DNA of 47,792 nucleotides, from positions 1 through 47,792 of IMG/VR virus record IMGVR_UViG_3300030329_003466. One strand, written 5' to 3'. Both the position numbers and the translations under genes were made by a program. The stretch is from a virus. Under the pieces are notes generated by a model that ran no database searches, was not told where the DNA came from, and was given only the letters and a program-made list of their open reading frames with translations. Positions 15,133-29,724 of this stretch are shown here, one piece after another (position 1 is the first letter of the stretch; each line of letters begins with the position of its first letter).

Positions 15133-15153
15133 GATTTCTCCTTATTTAAATTA

Positions 15154-15231: not shown

Positions 15232-15241
15232 AAAGTTATTG

Positions 15242-15871: not shown

Positions 15872-15884
15872 TTTTTCTCCTTGT

Positions 15885-16337: not shown

Positions 16338-16350
16338 TTTACCTCCCATC

Positions 16351-17112
16351 TTAAAATGAAGGCGGTCTACAATGGTCATAAAATTGACAATACCTGCAAT
16401 TCCAAGAACTGGCAGGACTCACACCAAGATTAAACATAGGTAAACCACCTTTAATTTCTTCATTAACATTCTTCCAAAATCTCTTAGCTTTGTCTACATA
16501 GTCAAGAGACACTGGTATTATTTTCATTCTTGAATCATCTTTCTTGTAGTAACACAAGAACATTCCATCAAGACTTCCAAATTTTTTCTTTATCGCATAC
16601 CCATAAGTGCCAAGCTGTAGCTCTTGGTGGTCAGATTGGTTAGGGGATTTATATTTTCTACCAAACTTTAGCGACCACGAAAAGCTAGCCATAGTTTTAA
16701 AATCATACAGATAGACCTTATCATCGCATTCAATAACAAGGTCATAAAAACCACGGACATTAAATTCAGGGATTTGAATTTCTTCTTCCATATGCACTTT
16801 AAACTTTTTTTCTTTTACTTCTTTTTCTTTTTTTAATAGATAACTATTATAGTTAACTATATTAGTAAAGGCAGATTGTAAATCTTCATGCACAATAGTT
16901 CCAAGCCTTAAAAGTCTCGAGCTTCTATCGTCTGGAGGATTTGTAGGCTCTACCTTTTCTACACTTGTATAAAAAATTTTTCTAGCACAATTACCAGAAT
17001 TACTGGCTTGAAAGTAATGTTCATTACCATCATACCTTTCTTTTCTGTTCTCTTCGTTTTTTTTATTTATGTAGTCTGCGTATACCTTCTGAATATCTAT
17101 AGGGTTAAACAC
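16351..17112 (-). CDS. Cas4/AddB-like Fe-S PD-(D/E)XK exonuclease
   Basis: This 253-residue protein starts with GTG at 17112, embedded in the stop region of the upstream gene. Nuclease residues are in order: H75 (GTIVHEDL), D124 (GFYDLVIE), D137-x-K139 (LYDFKT) and the Q-motif near HQELQLGTYGY (162-171). Four cysteines, C42 (GNCARK), C239, C242 and C248 (NCRYCQFYDHC), match the [4Fe-4S] arrangement of Cas4 and AddB nucleases. It likely resects DNA ends to feed the adjacent annealing protein. No Cas1/Cas2 or CRISPR array is present, so a CRISPR role is not supported. Confidence 0.9.
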   Translation of the reverse strand: MFNPIDIQKVYADYINKKNEENRKERYDGNEHYFQASNSGNCARKIFYTSVEKVEPTNPPDDRSSRLLRLGTIVHEDLQSAFTNIVNYNSYLLKKEKEVKEKKFKVHMEEEIQIPEFNVRGFYDLVIECDDKVYLYDFKTMASFSWSLKFGRKYKSPNQSDHQELQLGTYGYAIKKKFGSLDGMFLCYYKKDDSRMKIIPVSLDYVDKAKRFWKNVNEEIKGGLPMFNLGVSPASSWNCRYCQFYDHCRPPSF

Positions 17113-17269
17113 TTATGTTTCCGTTAGTGTAACTATTAATTAATTTTAATAGGCACTCGTTATAAGTATTCATTCCACCTTGAAGCAATCTAATTTTGAA
17201 TTGCCTCCATGTATCTGGTGGTATATTTTTAATAATATACTGCTTTGATTTGATTTGATTATCTTCCAT
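17105..17269 (-). CDS. Ribbon-helix-helix-like small protein (54 aa)
   Basis: ATG 17269 follows GAGAGGTAATA. The protein reads as a short polar leader, then a strand and two helices (YIIKNIPPDTWRQFKIRL, then GMNTYNECLLKLINSY), which fits the Arc/MetJ ribbon-helix-helix layout. In that layout a basic strand is followed by 'P...W..FK' and a second helix ending LI..Y. Such proteins usually dimerise and bind operators, so it may regulate phage transcription. Its stop codon overlaps the GTG start of the exonuclease gene, implying coupled translation. Confidence 0.75.
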   Translation of the reverse strand: MEDNQIKSKQYIIKNIPPDTWRQFKIRLLQGGMNTYNECLLKLINSYTNGNISV

Positions 17270-17340
17270 TATTACCTCTCATATTGGTTAATGTTTACTA
17301 TCTAAGTTATTACTTATTAAATTAAATAACAAGTATTTAT

Positions 17341-17406
17341 TTAAGTTACTGAATTAAAATAAATAAAAATTGCTGCTATGGTTATTAAAATTATGTAACC
17401 TTCCAT
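17341..17406 (-). CDS. Membrane micropeptide 3 (21 aa)
   Basis: The ATG at 17406 overlaps the preceding stop as TAATG. The peptide is nearly all hydrophobic (MEGYIILITIAAIFIYFNSVT), one transmembrane helix with an acidic N-terminus. It is the third of three consecutive single-helix peptides, and the overlap with its upstream neighbour supports real translation. Its size alone would not justify a call. An accessory lysis, superinfection-exclusion or membrane-anchor role is possible but unproven. Confidence 0.5.
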   Translation of the reverse strand: MEGYIILITIAAIFIYFNSVT

Positions 17407-17522
17407 TAGTTTCTAAACCATGTAACAATTAGTTGAATTATATATGACCAAAAAATAATTCCAGATATAATAATTGTAACCCATGTTATTGGTCTGCAAT
17501 ATTTCCATAAAAATTCTTTCAT
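17406..17522 (-). CDS. Membrane micropeptide 2 (38 aa)
   Basis: ATG 17522 overlaps the previous stop as TAATG and is preceded by TTGGAGGTTA, a strong ribosome site. A basic N-terminus (MKEFLWKYCRP) is followed by one hydrophobic helix (about residues 13-33) and a short basic end. The topology resembles small phage holin or anti-holin-like peptides, but no family is recognisable and it lies in the early rather than the late unit. Confidence 0.6.
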   Translation of the reverse strand: MKEFLWKYCRPITWVTIIISGIIFWSYIIQLIVTWFRN

Positions 17523-17614
17523 TATAACCTCCAATCATTTTCAGTTAAAATTACATATGCAATAGCCATAATTACTATAGCTACTGAACATATTACCACT
17601 ATTGCTGTATCCAT
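17522..17614 (-). CDS. Membrane micropeptide 1 (30 aa)
   Basis: ATG 17614 is preceded by GGAGAGA. The peptide has an N-terminal hydrophobic helix (about residues 4-23) and a short polar tail ending TENDWRL. It opens a three-gene run of coupled micro-membrane proteins between a 96-residue unknown protein and the ribbon-helix-helix gene. The function is unknown. Confidence 0.6.
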   Translation of the reverse strand: MDTAIVVICSVAIVIMAIAYVILTENDWRL

Positions 17615-17622
17615 ATTCTCTC

Positions 17623-17913
17623 CTACATTTCTTCTGGGCCTGGACCCATTGCTCTTGAAGCTGCCTTGTAAGCTTTGTCTGTAACAAGCAATACACAGTC
17701 TTCGTTAATATAATCCTCTATTAAGGGTAAATCTCCCCCGCTAAGGGCAACAAGCCCCTTATGGTCCCCTAAATGTTCTAACAGTCTTATAGTATCATAC
17801 CATTCGTCCATCATATACATAGATTCGTTATCGCCATTGGTTATTCTAGAGCTTAACTCTTGAGCTTTAGTTCTAAGAGTTCTTACTTGCTCGTCTGAGT
17901 TTAGTATTTTCAT
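17623..17913 (-). CDS. Unknown soluble protein (96 aa)
   Basis: The start at 17913 overlaps the stop of the AbrB-like gene (ATGA) and follows AGAAAGGAAGC. The 96 residues are helical and acidic, ending in a Gly/Pro tail (AMGPGPEEM). No motif is recognised. The overlap places it in the same translational unit as the AbrB-like regulator. Confidence 0.75.
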   Translation of the reverse strand: MKILNSDEQVRTLRTKAQELSSRITNGDNESMYMMDEWYDTIRLLEHLGDHKGLVALSGGDLPLIEDYINEDCVLLVTDKAYKAASRAMGPGPEEM

Positions 17914-18086
17914 TTTGTTGCTTCCTTTCTAGGCTTGAATTTTAATTTACAAGCACTGTTATCGTTATATACTGGCTTTATAATAATCCAACCACCAGTA
18001 TCTATATTGTTTGCCTCAAGGAATTTTCCAGGCAATGTGATTCTTCCTTTATCGTCCATTTTAACTTTCGCTATGTTCATTGTCAT
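17910..18086 (-). CDS. AbrB/MazE-type swapped-hairpin protein (58 aa)
   Basis: The core VKMDDKGRITLPGKFLEANNI is the classic AbrB/SpoVT/MazE strand-loop signature ('D.KGRI.LP...R...'), normally a dimeric DNA-binding beta-barrel. Two in-frame starts are possible. ATG 18086 has GGAG seven bases upstream, and a second ATG follows two codons later. It could be a phage transcription regulator or an antitoxin, but no partner toxin is visible nearby, so regulation is the simpler reading. It overlaps the upstream gene by 26 bases and the downstream gene by 3-4. Confidence 0.8.
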   Translation of the reverse strand: MTMNIAKVKMDDKGRITLPGKFLEANNIDTGGWIIIKPVYNDNSACKLKFKPRKEATK

Positions 18087-18225
18087 TAATTATCTCCTTT
18101 ACTTTTTTCAAAGTTTCTTCAAGTTCCGTGATAGTGTAGTATGCTTTGTGGAAATGTATTGTTAAATCATTTCTATCAAAACTTACTGCTTTTTCTTTTC
18201 TGTGTAATATTATTTCTTCTTTCAT
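18061..18225 (-). CDS. Small charged helical protein (54 aa)
   Basis: ATG 18225 lies after AAAGGAGTAATAAA, a good ribosome site. The protein has a basic N-terminal segment followed by a helical, Glu/Lys-rich C-terminal half (ITELEETLKKVKEIINDN) and no cysteines. It overlaps the AbrB-like gene by 26 bases in another frame. It contains one copy of the repeated word CACTATCAC (minus strand) at 18128-18136. Function unknown. Confidence 0.65.
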   Translation of the reverse strand: MKEEIILHRKEKAVSFDRNDLTIHFHKAYYTITELEETLKKVKEIINDNEHSES

Positions 18226-18248
18226 TTTATTACTCCTTTAGTTAGTTA

Positions 18249-18539
18249 TTAATAGTTTCCCCAAAACTCATCTTCTATATCCAAAAAATGTATTTCATAT
18301 TCACTATGCTTTAATATAAAACTAACTGTCCCACTTTCTTTGAAACGATTTAGAAAAGTATTTTTTCCTATTGTTTTACCATTAAAGAATTTAGAACTAT
18401 ATTCACTATGTTTGTTGTAGGTGTCCCAATCTATTAGTTCAAGATTTTCTTTTTGAATCCATTTCCAAGCATCTTGAGGACTTTTAAAATACATATCCTC
18501 ATAAGATGCTCTGCTTCTCATTATTAATATTTTCTTCAT
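18249..18539 (-). CDS. Unknown protein (96 aa)
   Basis: The start at 18539 follows AAAGGAGAAAAA. A beta-like N-terminus (MKKILIMRSRASYEDMYFKS) leads into a Trp-rich helix (DAWKWIQKENLEL), and the C-terminus is acidic and aromatic. No recognised motif. It is the first gene downstream of the RNA-element cluster at 18563-18876. Confidence 0.75.
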   Translation of the reverse strand: MKKILIMRSRASYEDMYFKSPQDAWKWIQKENLELIDWDTYNKHSEYSSKFFNGKTIGKNTFLNRFKESGTVSFILKHSEYEIHFLDIEDEFWGNY

Positions 18540-18562
18540 TTTTTTCTCCTTTAGTTAATGTT

Positions 18563-18672
18563 GCTCAAGAGATTACAAAAAGGACCAGAAAGGAATTATA
18601 GGAGCGGGATGCTCCCAAGATACTAGTAGCCCACGATTGCCCTCACGGTAACAACTATCTCATCTCTTGAGC
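18563..18672. ncRNA. Closed-stem RNA element 1 of a tandem set, 110 nt
   Basis: An 11-bp perfect inverted repeat (18563-18573 with 18662-18672, GCTCAAGAGAT) encloses two small hairpins: 18601-18605 with 18611-18615, and 18637-18641 with 18647-18651. The second hairpin contains a G:U pair only if the plus strand is the RNA, so the element may be antisense to the early operon. There is no open reading frame and no tRNA signature. It contains AGGACCAG, which recurs in the next element. Confidence 0.45.
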
Positions 18673-18680
18673 TTAATTTT

Positions 18681-18765
18681 AGAGAGCCTCACATATTCCT
18701 TTGCGTATGCAGTGTTGATATAATCTCATGCTTCATCGACTTACAGGACCAGTTATTGGCTCTCT
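18681..18765. ncRNA. Closed-stem RNA element 2, 85 nt
   Basis: An 8-bp perfect inverted repeat (18681-18688 AGAGAGCC with 18758-18765) closes an 85-nt unit that starts only nine bases after element 1. Its interior is weakly structured by eye but again contains AGGACCAG (about 18745-18752). It has no coding potential. Regular spacing with its neighbours suggests a family of units rather than chance palindromes. Confidence 0.4.
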
Positions 18766-18789
18766 TTTATATTGGCTTTTTTCTCATTC

Positions 18790-18876
18790 AATAGTAGTGC
18801 CTTTTACTCGGACTAGTTTGTCATGCTTGAAAAGGTTCCTGGAATAAACTTAGTGTAACTTCTCAGGACTGCTATT
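18790..18876. ncRNA. Closed-stem RNA element 3, 87 nt
   Basis: A 9-bp closing stem (18790-18798 with 18868-18876) contains one G:U pair on the plus strand. Two inner stems give a three-way junction: CCTTTT 18800-18805 with AAAAGG 18830-18835, and TCCTG 18837-18841 with CAGGA 18864-18868 (one base shared with the outer stem). It lies 24 bases beyond element 2 and ends shortly before the stop of the gene at 18899. The strand cannot be settled from sequence alone. Confidence 0.45.
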
Positions 18877-18898
18877 GCTATAGTTACATACCAATATT

Positions 18899-19024
18899 TT
18901 ATTTCTTAAACAAATCTAATTTTACTATATCAACCTTACCAATTCTTACTTTAAGATATATTAATCCTTTTTCTTGTTTCTTTGGTTTAGGTTTTTCTTC
19001 TACTGGATAAAATGTTAAACTCAC
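18899..19024 (-). CDS. Small basic protein (41 aa)
   Basis: The GTG start at 19024 overlaps the upstream TGA and follows GAGGAGGAAGA. The 41 residues are Lys- and Pro-rich then beta-like (VEEKPKPKKQEKGLIYLKV). Too short to classify. The strong ribosome site and overlap with its neighbour support translation. Confidence 0.55.
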   Translation of the reverse strand: MSLTFYPVEEKPKPKKQEKGLIYLKVRIGKVDIVKLDLFKK

Positions 19025-19164
19025 TCTTCCTCCTCTGCTTTTACAAACTCTACATCTACTCCGTCAAATGTCCAAGTAAATGAGTCGTAATTATAGTAAA
19101 CAAGCTGTTCAAACTCTCTTATATCACACTCTGATATATCAATTGTTATTTTTTTGTTTTTCAT
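19021..19164 (-). CDS. Small acidic protein (47 aa)
   Basis: ATG 19164 is preceded by GGAGGAGGAATAAT. Residues run from a short Lys-rich start into 'ITIDISECDIREFEQLV', an aromatic middle and an EEEE end. No motif is recognised. It is coupled to the genes on both sides. Confidence 0.65.
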   Translation of the reverse strand: MKNKKITIDISECDIREFEQLVYYNYDSFTWTFDGVDVEFVKAEEEE

Positions 19165-19165
19165 A

Positions 19166-19336
19166 TTATTCCTCCTCCGTCAATTGTTCGTGTTCCATAA
19201 TATAATCCCAAACACATTCATCATTTTGACAACAAGGTTCTCCATACATTGTTTCAAAAAAGTATTTACGATTATCTGTGTCTGAATACATTTCTTGTGC
19301 TTCTTTAAATGTTGTCCCACAACCTCTACACTTCAT
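19166..19336 (-). CDS. Small Cys-rich, probably zinc-binding protein (56 aa)
   Basis: ATG 19336 follows AAAGGAAATAA. Cysteines C3 and C6 (MKCRGCG) and C35, C36 and C41 (GEPCCQNDEC) are arranged as a minimal zinc ribbon. The C-terminus is acidic. Similar small zinc proteins are common in early phage operons, and the function is not known. Confidence 0.7.
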   Translation of the reverse strand: MKCRGCGTTFKEAQEMYSDTDNRKYFFETMYGEPCCQNDECVWDYIMEHEQLTEEE

Positions 19337-19361
19337 TTATTTCCTTTCTTTTGTTTGTTTT

Positions 19362-19724
19362 TTATTGTCCTGTCCTCCACCATTTATATACAATATCTTC
19401 TTGTTTTCCTAGATTATCTAGAGCAACTTGTCTTTCTTGGTTATATGGTAAAAGCTCATTAATATCTTTAAGCATTTGAAGTGAATCTACCCAGTTATCA
19501 TAAAGTTTTAACCTGTCATCACTTGACAAATCCTCAGCTTCTTCATCATCTCTGTGAGCAGTATGTGTTTGAGAGTATTCGTCATATTCTGCATCTTCAT
19601 AGTGATTTAAACAAGAGTCTAATCCAAGCTGGTTACACAATTGTTCAATTGCTTTAGATAGCTTATTGTGAGCCACCTCATCTAAATCTCCCTCTACTAC
19701 AAATACTGTTGTATTTTTTTCCAT
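19362..19724 (-). CDS. Unknown acidic protein (120 aa)
   Basis: I choose ATG 19724, directly after AAAAAGGAGAAAC, rather than ATG 19796. The extra upstream codons would run through the tRNA-like element at 19748-19826 and have no ribosome site. The protein begins MEKNTTVFVVEGDLDEVAHN, has an Asp/Glu/His-rich middle and a helical C-terminus ending YKWWRTGQ. No family is recognised. Confidence 0.75.
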   Translation of the reverse strand: MEKNTTVFVVEGDLDEVAHNKLSKAIEQLCNQLGLDSCLNHYEDAEYDEYSQTHTAHRDDEEAEDLSSDDRLKLYDNWVDSLQMLKDINELLPYNQERQVALDNLGKQEDIVYKWWRTGQ

Positions 19725-19747
19725 GTTTCTCCTTTTTATTAATTTAA

Positions 19748-19826
19748 AGGAAGTGGCTCTCACTTTCGCTATGAGATATATTCGGTCTTGTTTCAACCGT
19801 AGTCGCCAAAGACTATACCACTTCCT
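19748..19826 (-). ncRNA. tRNA-like cloverleaf RNA, 79 nt, non-canonical
   Basis: Read on the minus strand, all 79 bases partition into a cloverleaf. It has a 9-bp perfect acceptor-like stem (19818-19826 with 19748-19756), a TA linker, a 5-bp arm with loop TTTGGC, a 5-bp arm (one G:U) with 7-base loop GAAACAA, a 6-base variable region, and a 5-bp arm with 9-base loop. Against a functional tRNA: the acceptor is two pairs too long, position 33 is A rather than U, the T-loop is not TTCRA and there is no CCA. It could be a decoy, processing signal or regulator. Folding is by eye. Confidence 0.5.
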
Positions 19827-19831
19827 AATTA

Positions 19832-19840
19832 GTGATAGTG
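19832..19840 (+). repeat. GTGATAGTG word, intergenic copy
   Basis: This is one of seven same-orientation copies. The others are at 9871, 12151, 16108, 18128, 20564 and 22783 (start coordinates). This is the only copy lying wholly between genes. It extends to GTGATAGTGATT and sits six bases beyond the cloverleaf element, between it and the stop of the upstream gene. Confidence 0.6.
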
Positions 19841-19844
19841 ATTA

Positions 19845-20039
19845 TTATCTGTAATCTTCAACAATTTCCCAATCCTTTAGATAATCTTCAGCTATATCAT
19901 ACAGAAAAAACCCACCACTTCCACAATTGTTAGGCGGATATTTATTGTAGTCGGCTGTATGTACTCTAGTAACTTCAAATCCGTCTTCAGTATAATATAC
20001 ATCAATTATAACTCTTTCTTTTTCGTTATCTTTAGGCAT
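19845..20039 (-). CDS. Unknown small protein (64 aa)
   Basis: The start at 20039 follows GGAGAAGAGT and overlaps the end of the upstream gene by 8 bases. The product begins with beta-rich sequence (RVIIDVYYTEDGFEVTRV) and ends acidic and aromatic. No motif is recognised. Confidence 0.75.
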   Translation of the reverse strand: MPKDNEKERVIIDVYYTEDGFEVTRVHTADYNKYPPNNCGSGGFFLYDIAEDYLKDWEIVEDYR

Positions 20040-20484
20040 ACTCTTCTCCTTTCTTTGCTTTTTCTATGTTTACTATTGCTAAATCAATAGCTTGTCTGAC
20101 TGTTCCTCCACTTCCACCAGTTTCATCAATATGCTTAGTTATATTTGCATAAGCTTGTTGTAGATGAGTGTGGCATCTGTTCAGATTTCTGTGTCTTTTT
20201 TCATCAAGCCACTCCATAAAATCATCATAGGACACCTCGTCATTACAGTCCAAAGGACGAAGAAGTGTATTGTCTTTATTATTAAGGAGCTTCTCAAGGT
20301 CTTTATCAAAACCTTCATCTCCATAATCCCAATGGTCTAGGTGCTCATATATGATTTCGTATAAATCCTCCGTATAGCATTTTATACCTTTTTCGTATAC
20401 ATGCATTGAAGCAGTATTTCCTAGTTCCTCAAATGGAGTAACTTTTAATTCTACTTCTATGTATAGTTTTTCTAACTGATTCAT
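20032..20484 (-). CDS. Unknown helical protein (150 aa)
   Basis: ATG 20484 follows AGAAAGGAACAAC. The N-terminal 50 residues are beta-like and acidic. Residues about 95-150 form helices rich in His, Gln and Ala (CHTHLQQAYANITKHIDETGG), with a GGSGG turn. No catalytic motif is visible. It sits in a run of unknown early proteins that may be host-takeover factors, judged by position only. Confidence 0.78.
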   Translation of the reverse strand: MNQLEKLYIEVELKVTPFEELGNTASMHVYEKGIKCYTEDLYEIIYEHLDHWDYGDEGFDKDLEKLLNNKDNTLLRPLDCNDEVSYDDFMEWLDEKRHRNLNRCHTHLQQAYANITKHIDETGGSGGTVRQAIDLAIVNIEKAKKGEEYA

Positions 20485-20501
20485 AGTTGTTCCTTTCTTT
20501 T

Positions 20502-20840
20502 TTATTTGTATTTATTTATTTCCTTTTCGTTGTTGTAAAATCTTAAATAACTTGTGCTTTTTGGTGATAGTGCTCTATCCCCTCTTAATGCTCCATATAT
20601 ATCATGGTTGTACACACCTGTTATTTGGATTTCATCAAAGTCAAAAACATTACCTTTTTCATATGCTTGTGTGAATCCTAGCAGTGCCTTAACTCCGTTT
20701 ATTTTATTTGCAAACATATACTCCGTAAATATCCAATCAAGAAGTTCTTTATCAGACATTCCCTGCATATGCTCATTTTTGGTAAGATACTTTTCAATAC
20801 CTTTACCAAATTCTTCTTTAATTCTGTGTATTTCACTCAT
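20502..20840 (-). CDS. Unknown protein (112 aa)
   Basis: ATG 20840 follows AGAAAGGAAAATAA and lies immediately after the stop of the upstream gene. The product is mixed helix and strand, with a Tyr/Asn/Lys-rich C-terminus ending KEINKYK. It contains a GTGATAGTG copy (20564-20572). No recognisable domain. Confidence 0.75.
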   Translation of the reverse strand: MSEIHRIKEEFGKGIEKYLTKNEHMQGMSDKELLDWIFTEYMFANKINGVKALLGFTQAYEKGNVFDFDEIQITGVYNHDIYGALRGDRALSPKSTSYLRFYNNEKEINKYK

Positions 20841-21608
20841 TTATTTTCCTTTCTCTAGTTTCTTTAGTATTGCATTCTTTTCTATATATTTTTTATGCTC
20901 ATATGTATTAAGTTTGTATGCTCTATCTGGTAGTTTAGACTTCGGAAACCAATTACCCTCTCCTCTTAACCCGTCTCCTTTTGAAAATTCTGTCCATTTT
21001 CTATGATAGGGTGCAAGTTTTATTGCTACATCTAAGTCTTTTTGTCTAATTCTAAATGCAGGATTTAATAATTTCTTATCATACATATCCACCGTTACGA
21101 ATATATATGAGCCCATATGTGTTTGACATTTAGCCCAACCATTTTTCTTGTCGTTGTATTCATGCACCTTTTTACATCGTTCTTCTTGGCTATAAGGATT
21201 GTCTTTCCACTTGTCAATCTTAGACTGCTCTTGCACTGAAAGTTTATCATAATCCTCCCTCCATTGTTTCTCTTTTTTAGACATCTCTTTATCCATCTTT
21301 TTAAGAGTTTTTGTGTTATCGGTGCTGTATACATCTTTTAAGTCTGGATTTGCTTCCCTAAACTCCCTGTATCCAAAAAATGGGTGTCCCCAATAACTAC
21401 AATATCTTTGCCTGTTATCAAAGAAATATATTCTTCGCCTTACATCTGACTCTTCAAATACAGTAGTCAAGTCTACTTTTTCATCAACAAGAAGTGTTAT
21501 CCATTTCCTATCATCTCTATTAGAAAAGATTCCTGATAACTCCTCATCTAAATCAAGGTAATTACCATTCCTATCTTTGTGTAGATATGTTCTCTTATAT
21601 TCGTTCAT
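20841..21608 (-). CDS. Unknown basic, aromatic protein (255 aa)
   Basis: ATG 21608 follows AAAGGAGAAC. It is the largest unknown in the early unit: 255 residues, strongly Lys/Arg/Tyr/Trp-rich, with a helical charged middle (MSKKEKQWREDYDKL) and a basic C-terminus. Basic, aromatic composition would suit nucleic-acid binding, but no catalytic or zinc motif is apparent. I do not recognise it. Confidence 0.8.
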   Translation of the reverse strand: MNEYKRTYLHKDRNGNYLDLDEELSGIFSNRDDRKWITLLVDEKVDLTTVFEESDVRRRIYFFDNRQRYCSYWGHPFFGYREFREANPDLKDVYSTDNTKTLKKMDKEMSKKEKQWREDYDKLSVQEQSKIDKWKDNPYSQEERCKKVHEYNDKKNGWAKCQTHMGSYIFVTVDMYDKKLLNPAFRIRQKDLDVAIKLAPYHRKWTEFSKGDGLRGEGNWFPKSKLPDRAYKLNTYEHKKYIEKNAILKKLEKGK

Positions 21609-21625
21609 TGTTCTCCTTTCTTTGT

Positions 21626-21850
21626 TTATTTTTTACCACAAATCTCATTAACTAAATCTCTATCCATTCCAGAATTGTCTAGTATCTCCCAAGCTAAATC
21701 TGGGACTATCTCATCTATCTGGTGTGCTGTCATATCTTCCTCTACCCAGACTGATATTGTATCACAATCTGGTAGTTCTAGGAAGTTTATACCAGTTTTA
21801 CTCATTATGAATTGCCCAACTTGGTGTTGTGCATATGATATCTTACTCAT
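21626..21850 (-). CDS. Unknown acidic protein (74 aa)
   Basis: ATG 21850 overlaps the upstream stop by four bases (ATGA) and has GTGGAGG before it. The 74 residues are acidic and Ile/Leu/Trp-containing, compatible with a compact helical fold. No motif. Strict coupling to the GP88-like gene suggests the two products are made together. Confidence 0.72.
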   Translation of the reverse strand: MSKISYAQHQVGQFIMSKTGINFLELPDCDTISVWVEEDMTAHQIDEIVPDLAWEILDNSGMDRDLVNEICGKK

Positions 21851-22434
21851 TTCATTACCTCCACTATTTGTTGTGTCTTGTTACCTATTGTATAGCACAT
21901 CATACAATCTATGCATTTGCCTCTACAATTTACTTTATCTGAATCTTCACTGACATTATTAAAAACCTTGTCAAAATGTTTCGGTACTTCTGTCATTATT
22001 GTATCCACTACTGGATTTGAGTAAACCATTATAAGATTACTCGGAATTTTTTTATTTTTTAGTACCTTGTTCACTATGTTCTTTCTCTTCGTCCATAATG
22101 TAAAGGTTGTATTCGGTTGATTTTTACATATGTTCATTATGTTTATAAAGTGGGCTTCATTGATTAATTCCCCGTGTCCATTAAACCTTGCTACGATACT
22201 GCTTACTGGTAGTAAGTATTTAGGGTCGTGGACTTCTGCACTTAAAAACTTTGAGTTTCTTTTAAATGAGGGGACTGCACTCTTCCTAAATGTCTGTAAC
22301 ATATTCCAAGAGTAGCACTCTCCACAAATTGTATCTGTCTCCTTCATCTTTTGACAAAACTTGTTGCTTGTTGTGTCTGTATTTAGTGCAGGAATTCCAA
22401 TGAGCTTTCCACTCATCTTGCTCCAATGATACAT
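21847..22434 (-). CDS. GP88-family-like cysteine-rich protein (195 aa)
   Basis: The start at 22434 follows AGAAAGGAATAAA. The N-terminal layout (KLIGIPALNTDTTSNKFC, then ICGECYSWNML, then a Lys/Arg/Asn segment leading to KFLSAEV) resembles the phage 'gene product 88' family. In that family a CxxC(Y) cluster follows a short 'PS..T' segment. A second cysteine cluster at about residues 168-180 (CRGKCIDCMMC) suggests an Fe-S or zinc site. The radical-SAM CxxxCxxC triad is not present. The family's biochemical role is not known to me. The assignment is by pattern only. Confidence 0.6.
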   Translation of the reverse strand: MYHWSKMSGKLIGIPALNTDTTSNKFCQKMKETDTICGECYSWNMLQTFRKSAVPSFKRNSKFLSAEVHDPKYLLPVSSIVARFNGHGELINEAHFINIMNICKNQPNTTFTLWTKRKNIVNKVLKNKKIPSNLIMVYSNPVVDTIMTEVPKHFDKVFNNVSEDSDKVNCRGKCIDCMMCYTIGNKTQQIVEVMK

Positions 22435-22459
22435 TTTATTCCTTTCTGTTATTAATTTC

Positions 22460-22506
22460 TGACAAGGGCAGGACTCAAACCTACATTACAGAGTATGAAA
22501 GCTCTG
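22460..22506 (-). tRNA. tRNA-like 3' half (possible degenerate or split tRNA)
   Basis: On the minus strand the order matches a tRNA 3' half: an anticodon-like stem CAGAG/CTCTG (22489-22493 and 22502-22506) with an 8-base loop containing TTTCAT, a 4-base variable region, and a T-arm of 5 bp (one G:U; on the plus strand it would be a C:A mismatch) with loop TTTGAGT. A 7-base acceptor half CCTTGTC and then A follow. A matching 5' half (expected GACAAGG plus D-arm) is not found directly upstream. Only a partial match CTGACA occurs about 120 nt away, near 22580. A functional tRNA is therefore doubtful. Confidence 0.3.
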
Positions 22507-22559
22507 GGTATTAATTCAAAGTCTTAAAGACATAGTAAATACTTGCTTTTAATTATGCT

Positions 22560-22595
22560 GTTGACCATTTAATCTTGTGTCAGCAAGATGTCAAC
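22560..22595. ncRNA. Stable two-part hairpin in 233-base non-coding gap
   Basis: GTTGAC (22560-22565) pairs perfectly with GTCAAC (22590-22595), and inside it TCTTG (22573-22577) pairs with CAAGA (22584-22588). The surrounding gap 22435-22666 has no gene. Apart from this hairpin and the tRNA-like half I see an alternative pairing TGTCAG/CTGACA around 22578-22607, which would compete with it. Confidence 0.45.
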
Positions 22596-22666
22596 CTTAC
22601 TACTGACATAGTTTTTTACATAACACTTCACTTTCCTTGCATTTATACTACCTTGTATATTAAATT

Positions 22667-22837
22667 TTAATTTTCTTTTGTTTCCCCTTCTTTTATTGAT
22701 AAATATTTACTGGCTTGTAACTTTCCAAAAAACTCTAGTAATCTGTTCCTATCTCTATCGCTTGGTATGTGTTGCATGATTAGTGATAGTGATTTATCTA
22801 GCTCCTCTTGTGTTTCAAATGGTTTAAATAATTCCAT
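22667..22837 (-). CDS. Small helical protein (56 aa)
   Basis: ATG 22837 follows AAAGGAAATAAC. The 56 residues (beginning MELFKPFETQEELDKSLSL) are predicted helical, with a charged C-terminus. A GTGATAGTG copy lies inside the coding region at 22783-22791. No family is recognised. Confidence 0.68.
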   Translation of the reverse strand: MELFKPFETQEELDKSLSLIMQHIPSDRDRNRLLEFFGKLQASKYLSIKEGETKEN

Positions 22838-22854
22838 GTTATTTCCTTTCTTTT

Positions 22855-23061
22855 TTATTTATTTGGTATCTTGTTTGCTATTCTTGGAAAGACTCCTCCA
22901 CAATCATAGCTATTATTGTCACAATCTGGACATTTGTTAGTTATATTCCAATAATCTCCACCCTGTCTGCACCATTCATCTATTTCTTCTGTTGTATAAA
23001 ACCAGTAACCTTGACCGTCGCATGTTGTACAGTCTTCTTGTTTATTTAGTTTCTTTTTCAC
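22855..23061 (-). CDS. DnaJ-type zinc-finger-like small protein (68 aa)
   Basis: The GTG start at 23061 follows AAAGGTAAAT. An ATG one base upstream, in another frame, is immediately followed by TGA and cannot be used. Cysteines C11 and C14 (CTTCDGQGYW) and C44 and C47 (CPDCDNN) form two half-sites of a CxxCxGxG-type zinc finger as found in DnaJ central domains. It is the promoter-proximal gene of the leftward unit and may be an early regulator or chaperone-like factor. Confidence 0.75.
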   Translation of the reverse strand: MKKKLNKQEDCTTCDGQGYWFYTTEEIDEWCRQGGDYWNITNKCPDCDNNSYDCGGVFPRIANKIPNK

Positions 23062-23850
23062 ATTTACCTTTCTTTTTTTATTTACATTGTGAACAGGTAG
23101 AGCTTCGCACTCAATAGCACTTATATAAAATAATTTATTTATATCTGCTCCTGTTCATATTAGAGGCGGTATCATGTCGCACCACTCAAGCAAATTTTAT
23201 AAATTCCATAGGTTTCTATAAAATTCCATGTATTTTTATGTAATGTTAATTCATACCTAAATAAAATATTTAGGCAGTACATCGGGGTTTGCACCCGTTA
23301 AGAAACTTGACACTTGACCACTTTTATAAGATTTAAAAAAAATCTTTTTATTATGTCGTCTACCAACCGCATAAATTAATAATATTAAATTTATTAGATT
23401 TAAATATTTTCTAATCTTTTTCATTTCACGACATATAATATTGATTGTATTATATTTTTAATGTTTCCGTACAGCTTATAGCTGGTCGCTCGGTGACTTT
23501 CGCCAGGCGGTCGGACTCTAAGCCCGCTATTATTTAGCACCTTTTACCCTCTCATTTTCTGAATTATTTCTAACCTATGGTTACCGTGCTTTATCAAGGC
23601 ACTAAAATAATTACTCCCTTGTTGTAGACTTTTATAAGTTAATAGCTATTTTTCAAGCTCTTCCACTCTAACGGGTAGCACTCTAAATTGCTACTAGTTT
23701 TTATACTCCAAACTTTATGCCGTCGCCTTTATTTTTTCATTGTCTCAGAAATGATAATCAATTAAAAAATTATGTTCTACTGTTTTAATTCGCAGTATTG
23801 AATAGGTTATTATTATTATTTCTATCTTAACCTGTAACTAATATAATAAA
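23062..23850. ncRNA. Long structured non-coding region, left part
   Basis: No convincing gene lies in these 790 bases. Stems visible by eye are GAACAGG/CCTGTTC (23091-23156), CCTAAAT/ATTTAGG (23256-23274), CGGG/CCCG (23283-23297), AAGATTT/AAATCTT plus a T run (23328-23349), TATGTCGT/ACGACATA (23352-23435), CAGCT/AGCTG (23472-23484), GGTG/CGCC (23492-23504, G:U only on the plus strand), GCGG/CCGC (23507-23527) and GTAGCA/TGCTAC (23675-23694). The GC-rich islands stand out from AT-rich flanks. A large RNA, several small RNAs, or an early leader are possible. The promoter for the leftward unit must lie here but I cannot fix it. Confidence 0.45.
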
Positions 23851-23860
23851 TTATAATAAC

Positions 23861-24249
23861 ATAAGTCAAGTATTATTTTTAATTATCTTTATTTATAGAC
23901 GAGAAAAAAATTTGTTTCTCTATAAAATACATCTATAAAAAATGATATTATATTATATCAATTATAAATATAATATAATCATTTAACATTAATAAAACAA
24001 GGAATAAAAAAAATATATATATATAATACATACAATAGTCAAATAAAGCTCAAAACATAGCCAAACAAGCAATATTATTATTACTAGTATGTCAATACCT
24101 AGATTTAATATATATAATTCTCATAAGGAGAAAATAAAAATAATTTAAAATAATTAAAATAATACTTGCATATTAAAAATAATGTTTGTAAGTTATAACA
24201 GGTTGAGATAGTAATTAAATAATAAATAATAAAATAAGGAATTAAAAAA
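23861..24249. other. Extremely AT-rich segment with perfect inverted repeat; origin candidate
   Basis: This stretch is almost pure A/T with short TATA runs. A perfect 10-bp inverted repeat ATATTATATT/AATATAATAT spans 23945-23954 and 23967-23976, and GAGAAA/TTTCTC lies at 23901-23920. It sits between the divergent transcription units, a usual place for a phage replication origin or paired promoters. No initiator gene is recognisable, so the origin call is positional only. Confidence 0.3.
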
Positions 24250-24420
24250 ATGAAAAGATATATAAAAGTAACATATAAGACCCAAAGTAATAAAGAAACA
24301 AATAAAATTATTGAGTCATGGAATAAATATAAAGGTGACGGTTTATTAGATTTTGCTTGTAATTGGTATGTTAAGGAATTGATAAGATGGGAGCCGTGCG
24401 ACTATAAAAACGGGAAATAA
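24250..24420 (+). CDS. Small basic protein (56 aa) in the divergent region
   Basis: ATG 24250 is preceded by AAGGAATTAAAAAA, a good ribosome site. The protein reads MKRYIKVTYKTQ, then a helical stretch, then FACNWYVKELIRW near the end, rich in Lys, Asn, Trp and Tyr. It is the only likely gene in the 1.86-kb non-coding region and is isolated from the late unit by the structured region 24440-24810. The function is unknown. Position suggests an early regulatory product. Confidence 0.6.
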   Translation: MKRYIKVTYKTQSNKETNKIIESWNKYKGDGLLDFACNWYVKELIRWEPCDYKNGK

Positions 24421-24439
24421 TCGAAATTTTCAACCAAAA

Positions 24440-24810
24440 AGCAGACCCCTGCCGACCAAAAATCGGCGGTGGGCTTGCGATAATAAACAGTCACACCCAT
24501 TCTGATATTATTTTTTGAAATTTAGGATTTAGGAAAGTATTAGTTACTTATTAGTTAACTATTGATTGCTTATTTGGTGGGTGTTTAGGATAGAGAAGTC
24601 CTACCCCTTAGATAACTAAGAGTGCTTCCTATCCTGGTATTGCTTATTCGGAGCCTGCGCAATTTGGATACCTAATAATTCATTGTTTATTAAGCGGGTA
24701 AGCTATGTTTAGTTCAATGAAACTCTAATACGGCCTTCTTACCTTCGACTGACCTGTGACTTTGTATACCCCTTGTTCTAGTCACTTAAAACACATGCGG
24801 AACAAGTTTT
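24440..24810 (+). ncRNA. Structured non-coding RNA candidate with H-type pseudoknot
   Basis: Several nested stems fit one strand. ACACCCA/TGGGTGT (24493-24499 with 24578-24584) is 7 bp. AGGATAG-a-GAAG/CTTCCTATCCT (24587-24598 with 24625-24635) encloses hairpin CTTAG-ATAA-CTAAG. GGTAT/ATACC is at 24636-24672 and GGTAAG/CTTACC at 24697-24743. In the last part GTGACT (24756-24761) pairs with AGTCAC (24780-24785), while CTTGTTC in its loop (24772-24778) pairs with GAACAAG (24800-24806), a textbook H-type pseudoknot. There is no coding potential. It lies directly upstream of the late genes. I cannot match it to a known family. Confidence 0.5.
24446..24473. terminator. GC-rich hairpin after the 56-aa gene
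   Basis: A hairpin with about seven continuous pairs (including one G:T) plus two more after a mismatch surrounds loop CCAAAAA, starting 25 bases after the stop codon. It is the most GC-rich hairpin in the region. No strong U-run follows on the plus strand, so it may be a rho-independent terminator lacking the tail, a processing site, or the first helix of the RNA described at 24440-24810. Confidence 0.4.
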
Positions 24811-24884
24811 CAACCAATATACACATGTGATGAGCTCTTAATATATATACAAATATACCTAATGTCCAAAATATTTTTTATTTT

Positions 24885-24913
24885 TTGTTTTAAAGTTATC
24901 GATTTCTTATATT
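24885..24913 (+). promoter_or_regulatory. Possible sigma70-like promoter for the late unit
   Basis: TTGTTT (24885-24890) and TATATT (24908-24913) are separated by exactly 17 bases and end five bases before ATG 24919. If used, transcription would start at or next to the start codon, giving a leaderless message, which fits the lack of a ribosome site there. The AT-rich context makes chance matches likely. Confidence 0.3.
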
Positions 24914-24918
24914 AATCT

Positions 24919-25662
24919 ATGGATTTTAAAACTATCAAAGGCGTTAATCACTATTTGTATGACAATCAAATTGAATTTAAAGCCTTTAAGCCAGATTCAT
25001 ACATAGTTGGTAATTGGCGTAAAGCGCAGGAAGGTGAATGGGCGTTTACAGATGACGACTATGTGTGTCAAATATTAAAAAAGGGGTTTATTTCTGGCAA
25101 ACCTTTTGTAAGGACAGTGTGTGGGACCTATTTTATTAAATCCAGTAAGAGGGAAATGCTTGGTGAGGAGGGTATTGCAGAGTGTATTTACTCTTTTGCA
25201 GGTACTTATGATGCTCAAAGGCAGTATTCTAGGAATAAAATGAATGGAAAAGAGTTCATGTTTGCTCAGTATGTAGCATCTGGCATGGAAGTTGTAGCAG
25301 CTTTTAAGAAGGCATACCCTTCTGCAAAGAGTGAAAGTTATATTAAGGCTAAATCACAGCAAATTTTAAAAAAAGAGAAGGTTCAACAAATGGTAAAAGA
25401 AGAAATTAAGAAAATCTTAGAGGATGAGGGAGTAACTCCTGAGTGGCTTATAGGAAAATATAAAGATATTGCTACTTTAGCTGAACGTGATGGAGATAAA
25501 TTACGCTCTTTAGAGTCTTTAGCTAAAATATCAGGCTTATTTGACACTGAAAAGAAACAAGAGCAGCTTACGGTTTGGGCTGGATTTAGCCCTGAGCAAA
25601 TGGAGGCTATTAAAGATGGAGAAAAAACGAAACTTATTGCACACGCAGAAAAAGAAGGGTAA
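24919..25662 (+). CDS. Terminase small subunit-like protein
   Basis: Residues about 110-210 have the terminase-2 small-subunit pattern: 'GKEFMFAQYVASGMEVVAAF', a helix-turn-helix-like 'KKAYPSAKSES', then 'LKKEKVQQMVKEEI' and a long helical region. This domain recognises phage DNA for packaging and precedes the large terminase. An extra 95-residue N-terminal domain contains a W..A..GEWAFTDDDYV segment and a VRTVCGTY segment of unknown role. The length, 247 residues, is longer than typical because of that domain. No Shine-Dalgarno site precedes the start. Confidence 0.75.
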   Translation: MDFKTIKGVNHYLYDNQIEFKAFKPDSYIVGNWRKAQEGEWAFTDDDYVCQILKKGFISGKPFVRTVCGTYFIKSSKREMLGEEGIAECIYSFAGTYDAQRQYSRNKMNGKEFMFAQYVASGMEVVAAFKKAYPSAKSESYIKAKSQQILKKEKVQQMVKEEIKKILEDEGVTPEWLIGKYKDIATLAERDGDKLRSLESLAKISGLFDTEKKQEQLTVWAGFSPEQMEAIKDGEKTKLIAHAEKEG

Positions 25663-25855: not shown

Positions 25856-26260
25856 ATGAAGTTAAAAGAAAGAATTAAAAAACATGAAGGATATGTAGGG
25901 ATGGTTTACAAGGATAGCTTAGGAATAGATACTATTGGCTATGGTTTTGCAATTAAAGACCTAGAATTAGATGAAGATATATGTGATGAAATATTAGCTA
26001 GAAAGCTAAAAGATTTAGATGTTAGAATAAAAAATAAATTTTCTTGGTTCTCATATATGCCGCCTCAAATTAAAGATGTTATTATGGAAATGTGTTATCA
26101 GTTGGGTGTCGGAGGGTTCTCAAAATTTAGAAAAACTATTGCTTTTTTGCAGGACAAGAAATGGGCAGAAGCTTCAGAAGAAATGCTTGATAGTTTATGG
26201 GCAAAACAAACTCCTAACCGAGCTAAATCATTAAGCGATATTGTTAAAGGGGTAGAATAA
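25856..26260 (+). CDS. T4-type lysozyme (GH24 endolysin)
   Basis: This 134-residue protein has catalytic residues at the same numbers as T4 lysozyme: E11 (KKHEGYVGMVYKD), D20 and T26 (DTIGYGF). The C-terminal WAKQTPNRAKSLSDI block matches the conserved QTPNRA region. It cleaves the peptidoglycan glycan backbone for host lysis or as a virion enzyme. It has no signal peptide, so it needs a holin, for which candidates occur at 37816, 39833 and 40134. Its location in the packaging cluster rather than beside the holins is unusual. The stop overlaps the next ATG (TAATG). Confidence 0.93.
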   Translation: MKLKERIKKHEGYVGMVYKDSLGIDTIGYGFAIKDLELDEDICDEILARKLKDLDVRIKNKFSWFSYMPPQIKDVIMEMCYQLGVGGFSKFRKTIAFLQDKKWAEASEEMLDSLWAKQTPNRAKSLSDIVKGVE

Positions 26261-28155
26261 TGATTATATATAAGTATGATGAAGATACAGGGCAGGTTGT
26301 TGCAGAAGATGTTGATGAAAAAGCAACTGTTAATATACCGTTTGCTGGAAGTTTTAATTATAAACATGGACAAAAAGGAGTGACTAAAACTCCTTCAAGT
26401 TCTCAAGCACCTACATGGAATTTTAATAATCCTTTGCAGAACTGGAATTTTCCTGTATTTAACAAAGCTAAACAGGTTGCAAAAGATTGGGACTTTCCTT
26501 TATTAAATATGTTAAAAAATTTAGCCCCTAAAAAAGAACCAAATAGTGTTGTAAATCAAACTAAAAAAGCTGTTCCCCCTTCTTCAGCACTAGGTTTGGC
26601 TGGCATTAAAGATGTTAATGGAGACGGGGTAGTCAATGTTCTTGATATTTTAGCTCAAAGCCAAGCTCCACAAGTTCAAGGACCGCCTGTTGCACCATCC
26701 ACAACCCCTCCTTCTTTACAAGGCTTAGGAGATATAAATGGAGATGGCGTTGTTAATGTTCTTGATGCAATATTATCTAATCAAGTCCAGGGTCCACCTG
26801 TTGCCCCGCCTGTTGCAACTGACCCAAATGATGAAGACTGGACTGGCTCAGACTTTCCACATATGGCTGACCCATTAAATGTTGGTTCTGTTCAAAGTGA
26901 GCCACAAACCTCAGAGGATTGGACTGGTTCGGATTTCCCACATATAGCTGACCCAGTTTATAGTCAATCGCCTGAAGTTGTACAAGCACCTGAACAACAA
27001 CAATATAATATTACTGGAGGTCTTGGGGAGGTTAATTTTGGAGTTTCGTATGAGATTGAGATTGATGGAGAAATGAAGTTATTTAACTGGGGAGAAGGCC
27101 CTATGGCTACTGGACAAATGTCTTCTAAAGATGTTTATAATATGGTGAATCAAACTCCAGAATCTACAGAATTACAAGACTCTCTTCTTACTAGTCCGCT
27201 TTTTGGTCTTACTCCTAAAAAAAAAGATGAATTATTAAATCTAGATGAACCTCAACAAGTAGACAGTACTGATTACGGTCTATTTCAGATAAATGATTAC
27301 TGGCATGGCGAAGAAGCTCAAGATTCTATATGGAATAAATATGTTCATCCAAAAGATATGTCTCCAATAGAAAATATCGAGTATGCTAAAAAATTATATG
27401 ATAGAGAAGGTTGGGATGTTTGGTCATCTTATAAAAACAATTCTTATAAGCAATTTTTAGATTGGTCAGATGAAGATTATAAAAAATCTGGAGTATCACC
27501 TATGGATTTAACAAGGATTGATATGATGTTTCCTGACCCAGAAGAAAATAAAATAGCAAAAGCTATTATGATGGCTGAATCTGGTGGTAACAGAAAAGCT
27601 ATAAATTATAACATGAGTCAAAAAGACTCTTCTTTAAAGTTTGAAAAAAGTAATAAAGATGGAATCAAAACAGTTTCTTGGGGTTATTATTTAGATGATA
27701 ATGATAAAAAAATAAAGCATGGCTCTCATGAAAATTGGTATCAGGACGGAACTAAACGTATAGATGGTCAATGGGAAGACGGTAATAGAGTAGGTTCTTG
27801 GAGAGAATACGACAAAAATGGAAACTTAAAAAAAGTAACTGAGTATGACGATAAAGGTAATGAAAAGAACGTAACTCATTATAACCCAGATGGTTCTATA
27901 AGAGATTTAGAAAAAGAAATAGCAGATAGGGAATGGAAAAATAGAGAAAACCTCATGGAGACAGGTGGTATGGGTGGTGGTATAAGAATTGATTTAGCCA
28001 AACAGTCTGATGAAGAATTAACTAAATTATTGGATGATATTCAAAGGGCTGAAGAAGTGGGTGGCTTGAGCGGCATGGCTAGGAATTCTTTCATTAAGCA
28101 ATATCAAAATGAAATTCAAATTAGAAAAGATGCTGGTAGGTGGACAGGCAAATAA
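26260..28155 (+). CDS. Mosaic protein: dockerin pair, permuted lysozyme-like domain, MORN-like repeats (631 aa)
   Basis: Domains in order: Pro/Asn-rich leader; two dockerin-type calcium loops, DVNGDGVVNVLD at 118-129 and DINGDGVVNVLD at 158-169; two copies of DWTGSDFPH(M/I)ADP near 193 and 220; and a 'LGEVNFGVSYEI..WGEGP.A' unit near 255-285 also present at 40301-40996. A lysozyme C-terminal half follows (STDYGLFQINDYWHG at 336-350, then 'IEYAKKLYDREGWDVWSSY' near 373-391). Next comes the normally N-terminal catalytic helix IAKAIMMAESGGNRKAINYN (432-451, E440), then YwqK/MORN-like 'HG..WY.DG' repeats about 465-550. It is likely a virion-associated cell-wall enzyme or adaptor. The start overlaps the lysozyme stop. 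Confidence 0.8.
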   Translation: MIIYKYDEDTGQVVAEDVDEKATVNIPFAGSFNYKHGQKGVTKTPSSSQAPTWNFNNPLQNWNFPVFNKAKQVAKDWDFPLLNMLKNLAPKKEPNSVVNQTKKAVPPSSALGLAGIKDVNGDGVVNVLDILAQSQAPQVQGPPVAPSTTPPSLQGLGDINGDGVVNVLDAILSNQVQGPPVAPPVATDPNDEDWTGSDFPHMADPLNVGSVQSEPQTSEDWTGSDFPHIADPVYSQSPEVVQAPEQQQYNITGGLGEVNFGVSYEIEIDGEMKLFNWGEGPMATGQMSSKDVYNMVNQTPESTELQDSLLTSPLFGLTPKKKDELLNLDEPQQVDSTDYGLFQINDYWHGEEAQDSIWNKYVHPKDMSPIENIEYAKKLYDREGWDVWSSYKNNSYKQFLDWSDEDYKKSGVSPMDLTRIDMMFPDPEENKIAKAIMMAESGGNRKAINYNMSQKDSSLKFEKSNKDGIKTVSWGYYLDDNDKKIKHGSHENWYQDGTKRIDGQWEDGNRVGSWREYDKNGNLKKVTEYDDKGNEKNVTHYNPDGSIRDLEKEIADREWKNRENLMETGGMGGGIRIDLAKQSDEELTKLLDDIQRAEEVGGLSGMARNSFIKQYQNEIQIRKDAGRWTGK

Positions 28156-28158: not shown

Positions 28159-29724
28159 ATGGCTAACCTTAACCTTAATGGCAATGTTTCTAAGAATGAA
28201 AAAATTTTACACCATGCCTATAATGATTTGATAGCTTTTGGGAAGCTATTTTCCCCTCAAGATTTTTTGGCGTCTGCAACGCCCCCATTCCATGTGGAAG
28301 TGGGAAAAAAACTTTTAGCTAAAGACGTACAACAATTAGCTTTAGTTCTGCCAAGAGACCATGCAAAGTCTACTATGGCTGCTACCGCAATACTTCATCG
28401 TATCTTATTTGCCACAAAACAAGACCCTGAGTTTATATGTTGGGTTGGTGAAGCTCAAGACCAAGCAACTGATAATGTAGCGTGGCTACAAAATCATATA
28501 TATGATAATCCAGCAATACACTATTATTTTGGTGATTTAGAAGGTGACAAATGGACTAAGACTGAGTTTACTACTAAGAATGGTTGCAGAATGATTGCAA
28601 AAGGTGCTTCACAAAGATTGCGTGGAAAGAAGCAATTGTCTACTAGATATACAGGAATTGTTCTTGACGATTTTGAATCAGAGCTTAATACTAAGACTCC
28701 TGATTCTAGACAAAATATAAAAGATTGGGTTACAGCTGCTGTATACCCTGCTATCGATTTTGATAAAAGAGGGTTCTTATGGTGTAATGGAACTATTGTT
28801 CATTATGACAGTTTTTTGAATAATATTGTTAGAAGTCATCAGGAAGCAGAAAAAACTGGAGAAGATTATTCATGGGATGTTCTAACTTATAAAGCTATCT
28901 TAGATAATGGAGAGCCTTTATGGCCTAGTCGTTGGCCTTTAACAAAATTAGAAGAAAGAAAACAATTTTATATTGATTCAGGAGTTGCGGGCAAATTCTA
29001 TCAAGAGTTTATGAATCAAGCGAAGTCACCAGAGGACCAAATATTTCAAGAAGAGGATATTAATGATAACTATTATAAAGGAAAAATTAAATTTGATAAT
29101 GAGGCTGACTCATGGTTTTTGGAGTTGGATGATGGGACAAGACCTTATGTCAACATTTATATTGGTGTTGACCCTGCCTCTACACTTAGTTCTAGGGCTG
29201 ATTATAGTGTCATTATGGTTATTGGTGTTACCGCTGATAACGATTATTACATTCTTGAGTATTGGAGAAAAAGAGTATTACCTATGGAGTGTGCCGATGA
29301 GATATTTAAAATCGCTAAACGATACTCGCCAATTAGAAGAATAAATATTGAAACTATAGCATATCAAGAAATGCTTAGAGATTATATTATGAAAAGGTCT
29401 AAAAAGGAAGGATTGTTTCTTCCTGGTATTCACAAAGGGATAAAGAATTATGGAAATCAGAAAAAGAAAGACAGATTGTTTGAAGGTCTTCAACCTATGT
29501 TTAAAGCTGGAGCTGTTCATTTAAAAAAGAATATGCATGAGTTTATTGGTGAATTACTTGATTTTCCAAAAGGTTCTCATGATGATTGTATTGATGCTTT
29601 TTGGTTAGCTACTCAATTTGCAAAAGGAAATCCTAGTGCAGGTAAGTCTAAAAAAGAAAAGGGGAGAGATGGGTGGTTTAAAAGAAAAAAGAGGTATAAT
29701 TGGATTACAGGAGCTAGAATATAA
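28159..29724 (+). CDS. terL: Terminase large subunit
   Basis: Walker A-like LPRDHAKST (64-72), Walker B IVLDDFE (167-173) and the RNase-H-type nuclease acids D338 (GVDPAST), E398 (NIETIAY) and D479 within HDDCIDA (D475-D479) are all present in 521 residues. The protein is therefore a complete ATPase-nuclease packaging motor. The RDHAKST P-loop form is seen in several podoviral terminases. It translocates DNA through the portal encoded by the next gene. A 43-base AT-rich gap separates the two. Confidence 0.95.
   Translation: MANLNLNGNVSKNEKILHHAYNDLIAFGKLFSPQDFLASATPPFHVEVGKKLLAKDVQQLALVLPRDHAKSTMAATAILHRILFATKQDPEFICWVGEAQDQATDNVAWLQNHIYDNPAIHYYFGDLEGDKWTKTEFTTKNGCRMIAKGASQRLRGKKQLSTRYTGIVLDDFESELNTKTPDSRQNIKDWVTAAVYPAIDFDKRGFLWCNGTIVHYDSFLNNIVRSHQEAEKTGEDYSWDVLTYKAILDNGEPLWPSRWPLTKLEERKQFYIDSGVAGKFYQEFMNQAKSPEDQIFQEEDINDNYYKGKIKFDNEADSWFLELDDGTRPYVNIYIGVDPASTLSSRADYSVIMVIGVTADNDYYILEYWRKRVLPMECADEIFKIAKRYSPIRRINIETIAYQEMLRDYIMKRSKKEGLFLPGIHKGIKNYGNQKKKDRLFEGLQPMFKAGAVHLKKNMHEFIGELLDFPKGSHDDCIDAFWLATQFAKGNPSAGKSKKEKGRDGWFKRKKRYNWITGARI

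Follow-up and report, generated by a model that had tools for sequence, protein, structure and literature searches.

The locus described here raises the question whether a lysozyme-like domain whose two halves stand in swapped order is a circularly permuted enzyme, and at which step of infection such an enzyme would act. The window, i.e., the whole stretch of DNA that was analyzed, comprises 47,792 bases with 33.6% G+C and corresponds to positions 1-47,792 of the IMG/VR virus record IMGVR_UViG_3300030329_003466. For one of its ORFs (Table 1), a preliminary description had claimed that a GLFQIN segment and an AKKLY helix precede the catalytic-Glu helix, in the reverse of the canonical order, as a circular permutation within a single intact frame would give.

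Table 1. Location of the permuted domain, of other parts of the same protein, and of genes discussed in the text.
Feature	Residues	Coordinates	Strand	Basis or remark
1889-aa protein with a short stretch of similarity to the gp16-like (ejection-type) protein of L202		6294..11963	+	phmmer 1.4e-13
T4-type lysozyme gene, probable endolysin		25856..26260	+	PF00959 3.6e-9; phrog_7 endolysin
631-aa protein with permuted lysozyme domain (fold predicted)	1-631	26260..28155	+	one uninterrupted open frame; L001 relative in the same gene neighborhood
Two dockerin-like repeats	117-170	26608..26769	+	PF00404 1.5e-7
Half B, canonical lysozyme second half (GLFQIN strand and following helices)	334-412	27259..27495	+	SLT_3, Lys
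D338, aligned with position 52 of c-type lysozymes	338	27271..27273	+
GLFQIN motif	340-345	27277..27294	+
Half A, canonical first half (entry helix, catalytic-Glu helix, hairpin strand 1)	413-458	27496..27633	+	SLT profile 14-35; canonical-order HMM covers A and B only once re-ordered
E440, predicted catalytic acid	440	27577..27579	+	AES-x-G in 24/24 distinct members
MORN-type repeat in C-terminal tail	511-531	27790..27852	+	PF07661 E 0.0011, does not reach its cut-off
Terminase large subunit, next gene downstream		28159..29724	+	phrog_38

Order of the Two Halves

The order that had been proposed is borne out by the motif positions in the ORF: GLFQIN at residue 340 is followed by the AKKLY helix, starting at residue 376 (nucleotide 27385), and then by the Glu-helix motif MAESGG, which begins at residue 438 and thus makes E440 the glutamate in question. 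The frame is indeed intact, being open throughout its 631 codons. The Glu helix had been located correctly behind GLFQIN, but the limits given for it, residues 432-451, are slightly off, as the predicted structure of the window domain places the helix at model residues 100-114, i.e., at about residues 427-441 of the protein. As for a separate catalytic Glu before residue 336, the permuted members found among 8670 ORFs lack a second half-A-type match upstream of half B. A candidate for such a second Glu in the subfamily of giant proteins described below was rejected, as L013 has Ala at this position (by eye) and no A-type match falls there. In this giant subfamily only (e.g., L047), a conserved stretch of about 40 residues (with NQILKNEIDNPGSS) lies upstream of the permuted domain.

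When the whole protein is submitted to hmmscan, residues 335-389 match positions 40-88 of PF18896 (SLT_3; 5.5e-7) and residues 430-451 match the start of PF01464 (SLT; positions 14-35), while half B is also recognized by PF00062 (Lys; positions 46-120). The isolated domain in its native order gives the same picture, with half B matching SLT_3 positions 42-88 and half A matching SLT positions 14-35. Both modules (Glu helix and G-x-FQIN hairpin region) are therefore present in the window domain and, because they stand in reverse order in the window as in every one of the 24 distinct members of the family described below, the domain is a permuted derivative and not an ordinary member of the lysozyme superfamily. 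In the native profile, position 12 (D) is aligned opposite residue 49 of alpha-lactalbumin and position 9 opposite residue 49 of hen lysozyme; residue 52 is the second catalytic residue of hen lysozyme. A six-frame search with SLT yields nothing in six of six records, which says little, since it is too weak for even the permuted copies.

Placing half A before half B raises the scores of the window domain from 34.5 to 44.7 bits for SLT_3, now in one stretch, and from 17.0 bits, under the cut-off of 21.3, to 25.9 bits for SLT. For the L001 relative, the corresponding values increase from 28.6 to 41.3 (SLT_3) and from 18.1 to 28.6 (SLT), a gain that may owe part to the shorter query because the full native protein was compared with the re-ordered domain. 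An HMM in canonical order, built from 14 canonical sequences recruited through the permuted profile, scores all 24 distinct members higher after re-ordering (mean gain 19.3 bits, minimum 9.3; window domain from 46.1 to 76.2 bits), and each re-ordered member beats the best of 20 controls with shuffled half A by at least 7.1 bits. In view of how the canonical set was recruited, the Pfam comparison is the independent test. With the same HMM, duplicating the native chain in place of re-ordering it brings no gain, so that explicit re-ordering alone is informative.

Database searches respond to order in the same manner. By tblastn against 50,697 phage records, neither the native 631-aa protein (E limit 0.01) nor the native domains of two relatives (E limit 1) find a match, and phage-record searches with the whole permuted protein of L202 found nothing; the re-ordered window domain matches 23 phage records, 17 of them from Prochlorococcus P-SCSP1 podoviruses and matched over 82% of the query. 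With phmmer, the re-ordered chain matches lysozyme 1gd6 over residues 5-97 (E 9.9e-6), and the native profile, among the matches listed, aligns with c-type lysozymes and alpha-lactalbumins through half B only. A PHROG scan assigns the 631-aa protein to no family.

Outside the lysozyme-like region, the dockerin-like repeats may be docking sites; a partner for them was sought in a few Pfam scans and none was found. They are missing from the L001 relative, which is 56% identical to the window protein over aligned columns. One further dockerin-like DxNxDGxVxxLD repeat occurs in a 253-aa ORF (2080-2841; PF00404 E 0.021) near the ejection-type gene. The C-terminal tail (27640-28155), with its MORN-like repeat, belongs to the window protein and has no counterpart in L001, the L001 protein ending just after half A. 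A short module, SYE-x-x-I-x-G ... W-G-x-G-P, is common to residues 254-289 of the window protein, a 235-aa ORF at 40289-40996, and the L001 relative.

A Permuted Family and Its Canonical Relatives

Scans of viral contigs reveal the B-A order in open frames on 25 other contigs, and the resulting 26, the window included, reduce to 24 distinct domain sequences, L203 being one of them; L180, L181, and L182, in which the contig ends inside the domain, are left out as complete members. The counterpart of E440 and its motif are conserved throughout (Table 1), and the Asp aligned with c-type position 52 is found in 23 of the 24, the exception being L088. Two pattern scans returned the permuted family in 20 of 81 and in 1 of 54 stretches, respectively, and the remaining stretches were rejected as chance matches, as out of frame, or as canonical lysozymes in which an AES motif follows by accident.

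A profile made from nine permuted sequences matches every complete family member once, over its full length. Canonical relatives are hit by two neighboring segments of the profile whose order is inverted: model positions within about 79-123 come first, and those within about 4-82 follow. This two-piece pattern is seen in Nitrospirae MAGs (L183, L184, L185, L186, and L188), on viral contigs (L114, L118, L119, L124, L125, L132, L134, L142, L143, L159, and L160), and in the P-SCSP1i locus L163, while L002, L004, L017/L029/L201, and L187 show the B piece without a clear A piece. A first scan of genome contigs (A3) gave 292 stretches, none of which was confirmed, and a second (A4) gave six Nitrospirae loci only, five canonical in order and the sixth (L187) truncated. 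Canonical bacterial relatives of the domain, which may be prophage genes, sit in these Nitrospirae MAGs.

In an unrooted tree of 40 rows (24 permuted ones, re-ordered, and 16 canonical ones), which contains some long branches, the permuted rows form one side of a branch with support 99/95 that recurs in 98% of 200 bootstrap trees, a placement that is consistent with a single permutation event. Comparison of the window with L001 by NG86 over 116 codons gives dN 0.13 and dS 1.23, the latter near saturation, and the two sequences are 84% identical in half A and 74% in half B. At the level of these codon and residue comparisons, both halves are under purifying constraint. As related phage proteins share the reversed order, the rearrangement is genuine and has been inherited, and it very probably serves a function.

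Predicted Fold

The model of the window domain, predicted from a 9-row alignment, reaches pLDDT 74.9 and pTM 0.73 and is weak in the GLFQIN region, and that of the L164 relative (26 rows) reaches pLDDT 91.5 and pTM 0.83, with three of the five AlphaFold models poor (61-65). In both predicted structures E440 or its counterpart lies toward the C-terminus of the Glu helix. The only strands in the L164 model are residues 8-13 (VDSSDY), 18-19, and 119-123 (VNVNY), the last preceded by the Glu helix at 101-112, which holds E111, and helices and strands appear to be placed as a permuted lysozyme needs. As strands assigned by DSSP need partners, the two ends of the domain likely pair, and the paired end strands that the DSSP string implies are likely the lysozyme hairpin, opened at its turn.

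Foldseek finds no match at E<=0.001 in the PDB for either model, or in BFVD for the L164 model. The best match of the window model has E 0.85; for the L164 model, chains of the lytic transglycosylase MltE rank 1-3, 7, 8, and 18 and were set aside as too weak (E 1.1-4.9, TM 0.15-0.17). VIA-align lists nothing relevant for the L164 model (SARS-CoV-2 protease chains and a glutaminase, Z 2.9 or less) or for the window model (a death domain, Z 2.9 or less); lysozymes do not figure in the VIA lists, a null that excludes nothing. Sequential aligners such as these are expected to perform poorly on a permutation, but with no match the lysozyme fold stays a prediction.

Gene Context and Proposed Virion Association

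Three kinds of setting were found for the permuted domain. In the first, it occupies approximately residues 95-260 of giant proteins, longer than 1700 aa where complete. In six phage records, five from Pelagibacter phages and one uncultured, proteins annotated as internal virion proteins match residues 1237-1601 of one of these (L047) at 22-26% identity; a PHROG scan of the giant protein of L168 and a phage-record search with that of L189 gave no match. The second setting consists of proteins of about 560 aa (L010, L012, L026, L027, and L203). In L202, which is the same contig as L026, the permuted gene lies directly upstream of a gene for a 1199-aa protein whose match to phrog_342 (annotated as "internal virion protein with endolysin domain") starts only at profile position 323, leaving out the N-terminal part of the profile. 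A six-frame search found phrog_342 in none of eight records, that of L202 included, which leaves a single whole-protein match of 31 bits as the basis of this assignment. The third setting, that of the window and L001, places the permuted gene directly after the T4-type lysozyme gene and before terL.

PHROG profiles assign terS (24919), terL (28159), portal (29768), and major head protein (32559) genes in the window. At 631 aa and adjoining terL, the window protein itself is not a giant ejection protein; the candidate for the gp16-like protein is the product of ORF 6294-11963, of which residues 89-166 match residues 66-143 of the ejection-type protein of L202 by phmmer and for which a PHROG scan gave no match. 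As the 1800-aa ORF 42117-47519 also matches an L202 protein, of 787 aa, the two phages are distantly akin. The large ORFs at 3637-6291 (884 aa), 6294-11963 (1889 aa), and 42117-47519 (1800 aa) are almost devoid of family matches. GC skew is positive in the structural arms of the window and negative within 10001-25000, where genes lie on the minus strand (a DnaB-like helicase and a Cas4-like exonuclease).

We propose, with a probability of roughly three in four, that residues from about 334 to 458 form a lysozyme-fold glycosidase that arose by circular permutation from a canonical phage domain and has a muralytic role in the virion. For the window protein, whose gene adjoins terL and the endolysin gene outside any ejection cluster, the virion role is an extrapolation. 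Its position speaks to some extent for a protein that is equally permuted and serves as an endolysin or lysis accessory, acting from the cytoplasm together with the adjoining T4-type lysozyme; PF00959 was found in two of eight records, precisely those of the window and L001. Still, we regard lysis as an unlikely function, as the other subfamilies that were examined have the domain joined to, or encoded directly upstream of, proteins that are probably of the ejection type and the window already has an endolysin candidate.

Proposed Mechanism and Further Alternatives

A virion-borne permuted glycosidase would descend from a canonical lysozyme/transglycosylase-like phage domain that was cut in its active-site beta-hairpin, between the strand behind the Glu helix and the STDYG-LFQIN strand. 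A short linker would join the old C-terminal helices to the old N-terminal helix, and strand pairing between the two ends of the domain would close the fold, bringing E440, the presumed general acid, beside D338 and the GLFQIN strand. The enzyme would then most likely act from within the virion and cut the peptidoglycan locally while the genome enters, like the N-terminal domain of T7 gp16.

A bolder version, which we consider improbable, takes the hairpin cut for a built-in folding switch that arose in one event and was inherited by the ejection-protein lineage: as the beta-sheet would close only when the two ends zip together, the domain would be inactive while packed and threaded through portal and tail and active after ejection into the periplasm. 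Still more improbable is an exchange between chains, in which each half B is complemented by the half A of an adjacent subunit and the active unit is an oligomer, such as the rings that ejection proteins form. The short linker between B and A is compatible with such an exchange and the ejection proteins of T7 are oligomeric, as excerpts of PMC8954989 state, but the single chain of L164 is predicted to fold with high confidence.

Phage proteins are mosaic, and the window protein carries dockerin-like and MORN-like extras that are missing from L001, so that one might see in the two halves unrelated or decaying pieces brought together by recombination, without a common core. This reading is very improbable and was rejected, since the halves are adjacent and in the same order on 26 contigs, are under purifying constraint, and are covered by one joint profile and one confident model. 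An assembly artefact or frame error is refuted by the same order in open frames on 25 other contigs. The claim of a circular permutation is accordingly upheld by the re-ordering tests, the reversed-piece profile hits, the conservation on 26 contigs, the tree, and, as far as a prediction can do so, the L164 model. The preliminary description covered neither the family-wide extent of the order nor the probable link to ejection-type proteins.

Comparison With Known Systems

The comparisons below draw on excerpts of the cited reports. A natural permuted lysozyme core with muralytic activity is known from the endolysin of Hafnia phage Enc34 (ORF39, PHA02564), in which the Glu helix (alpha5, Glu131) comes after alpha2-alpha4 (PMC8943055). 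In Enc34 and in the family described here, the Glu helix follows the core helices, here as half B before half A, but kinship at the sequence level is undetectable (hhalign probability 0.7 on the percent scale, E 0.083 over 29 columns). Furthermore, beta elements are missing from the Enc34 enzyme, which carries a membrane part at its C-terminus, whereas the window family retains the hairpin motif and is recognizable by sequence. A permuted lysozyme core is thus already known, and what is new here is a permuted family that can be recognized by its sequence.

The C-terminal domain of ULF49798.1 from the Prochlorococcus phage P-SCSP1 contains the same two modules with about 35% identity over 82% of the re-ordered chain, and its gene lies directly before that of a very large protein. 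In contrast to the window domain it has the canonical A-B order and gives a single SLT_3 match of 51.9 bits. In T7, residues 1-156 of gp16 (internal virion protein D) are a transglycosylase with E37, and in phage K1E the lysozyme activity is located in the gp15-like protein (PMC8954989). T7 gp16 would resemble the giant permuted relatives in carrying a lysozyme-fold muralytic domain N-terminally on a giant ejection protein, although E37 is near the start of its domain, while the window copy is permuted and belongs to a separate 631-aa protein encoded beside terL. That the lysozyme fold tolerates permutation is known from an engineered circular permutant of T4 lysozyme (1P5C; PMC2395249), which differs in being artificial, from another lysozyme family, and cut elsewhere. 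The accessible portions of a paper on the lysozyme superfamily (PMC2976769) contain no word beginning with "permut", and in those of PMC6403190, PMC7824862, PMC3482391, and PMC12419801 permutation concerns other proteins or is absent. No report of this permuted lysozyme family was found in the portions of the open-licence PMC literature that were accessible.

Significance

There is hardly any record of natural circular permutants of the lysozyme fold, Enc34 being the only one found in the accessible open-licence PMC literature, and there the permutation link is drawn from structure alone. As both orders can be recognized by sequence in the present family, its origin, breakpoint, and descent are open to study, and the permuted and canonical domains form a pair suitable for comparison at the bench. 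Standard annotation overlooks such permuted domains or halves them. Judging from the genes in which the domain occurs, a muralytic module seems to pass from one ejection protein to another, in the present case as a permuted lineage, which would add a further case of such movement.
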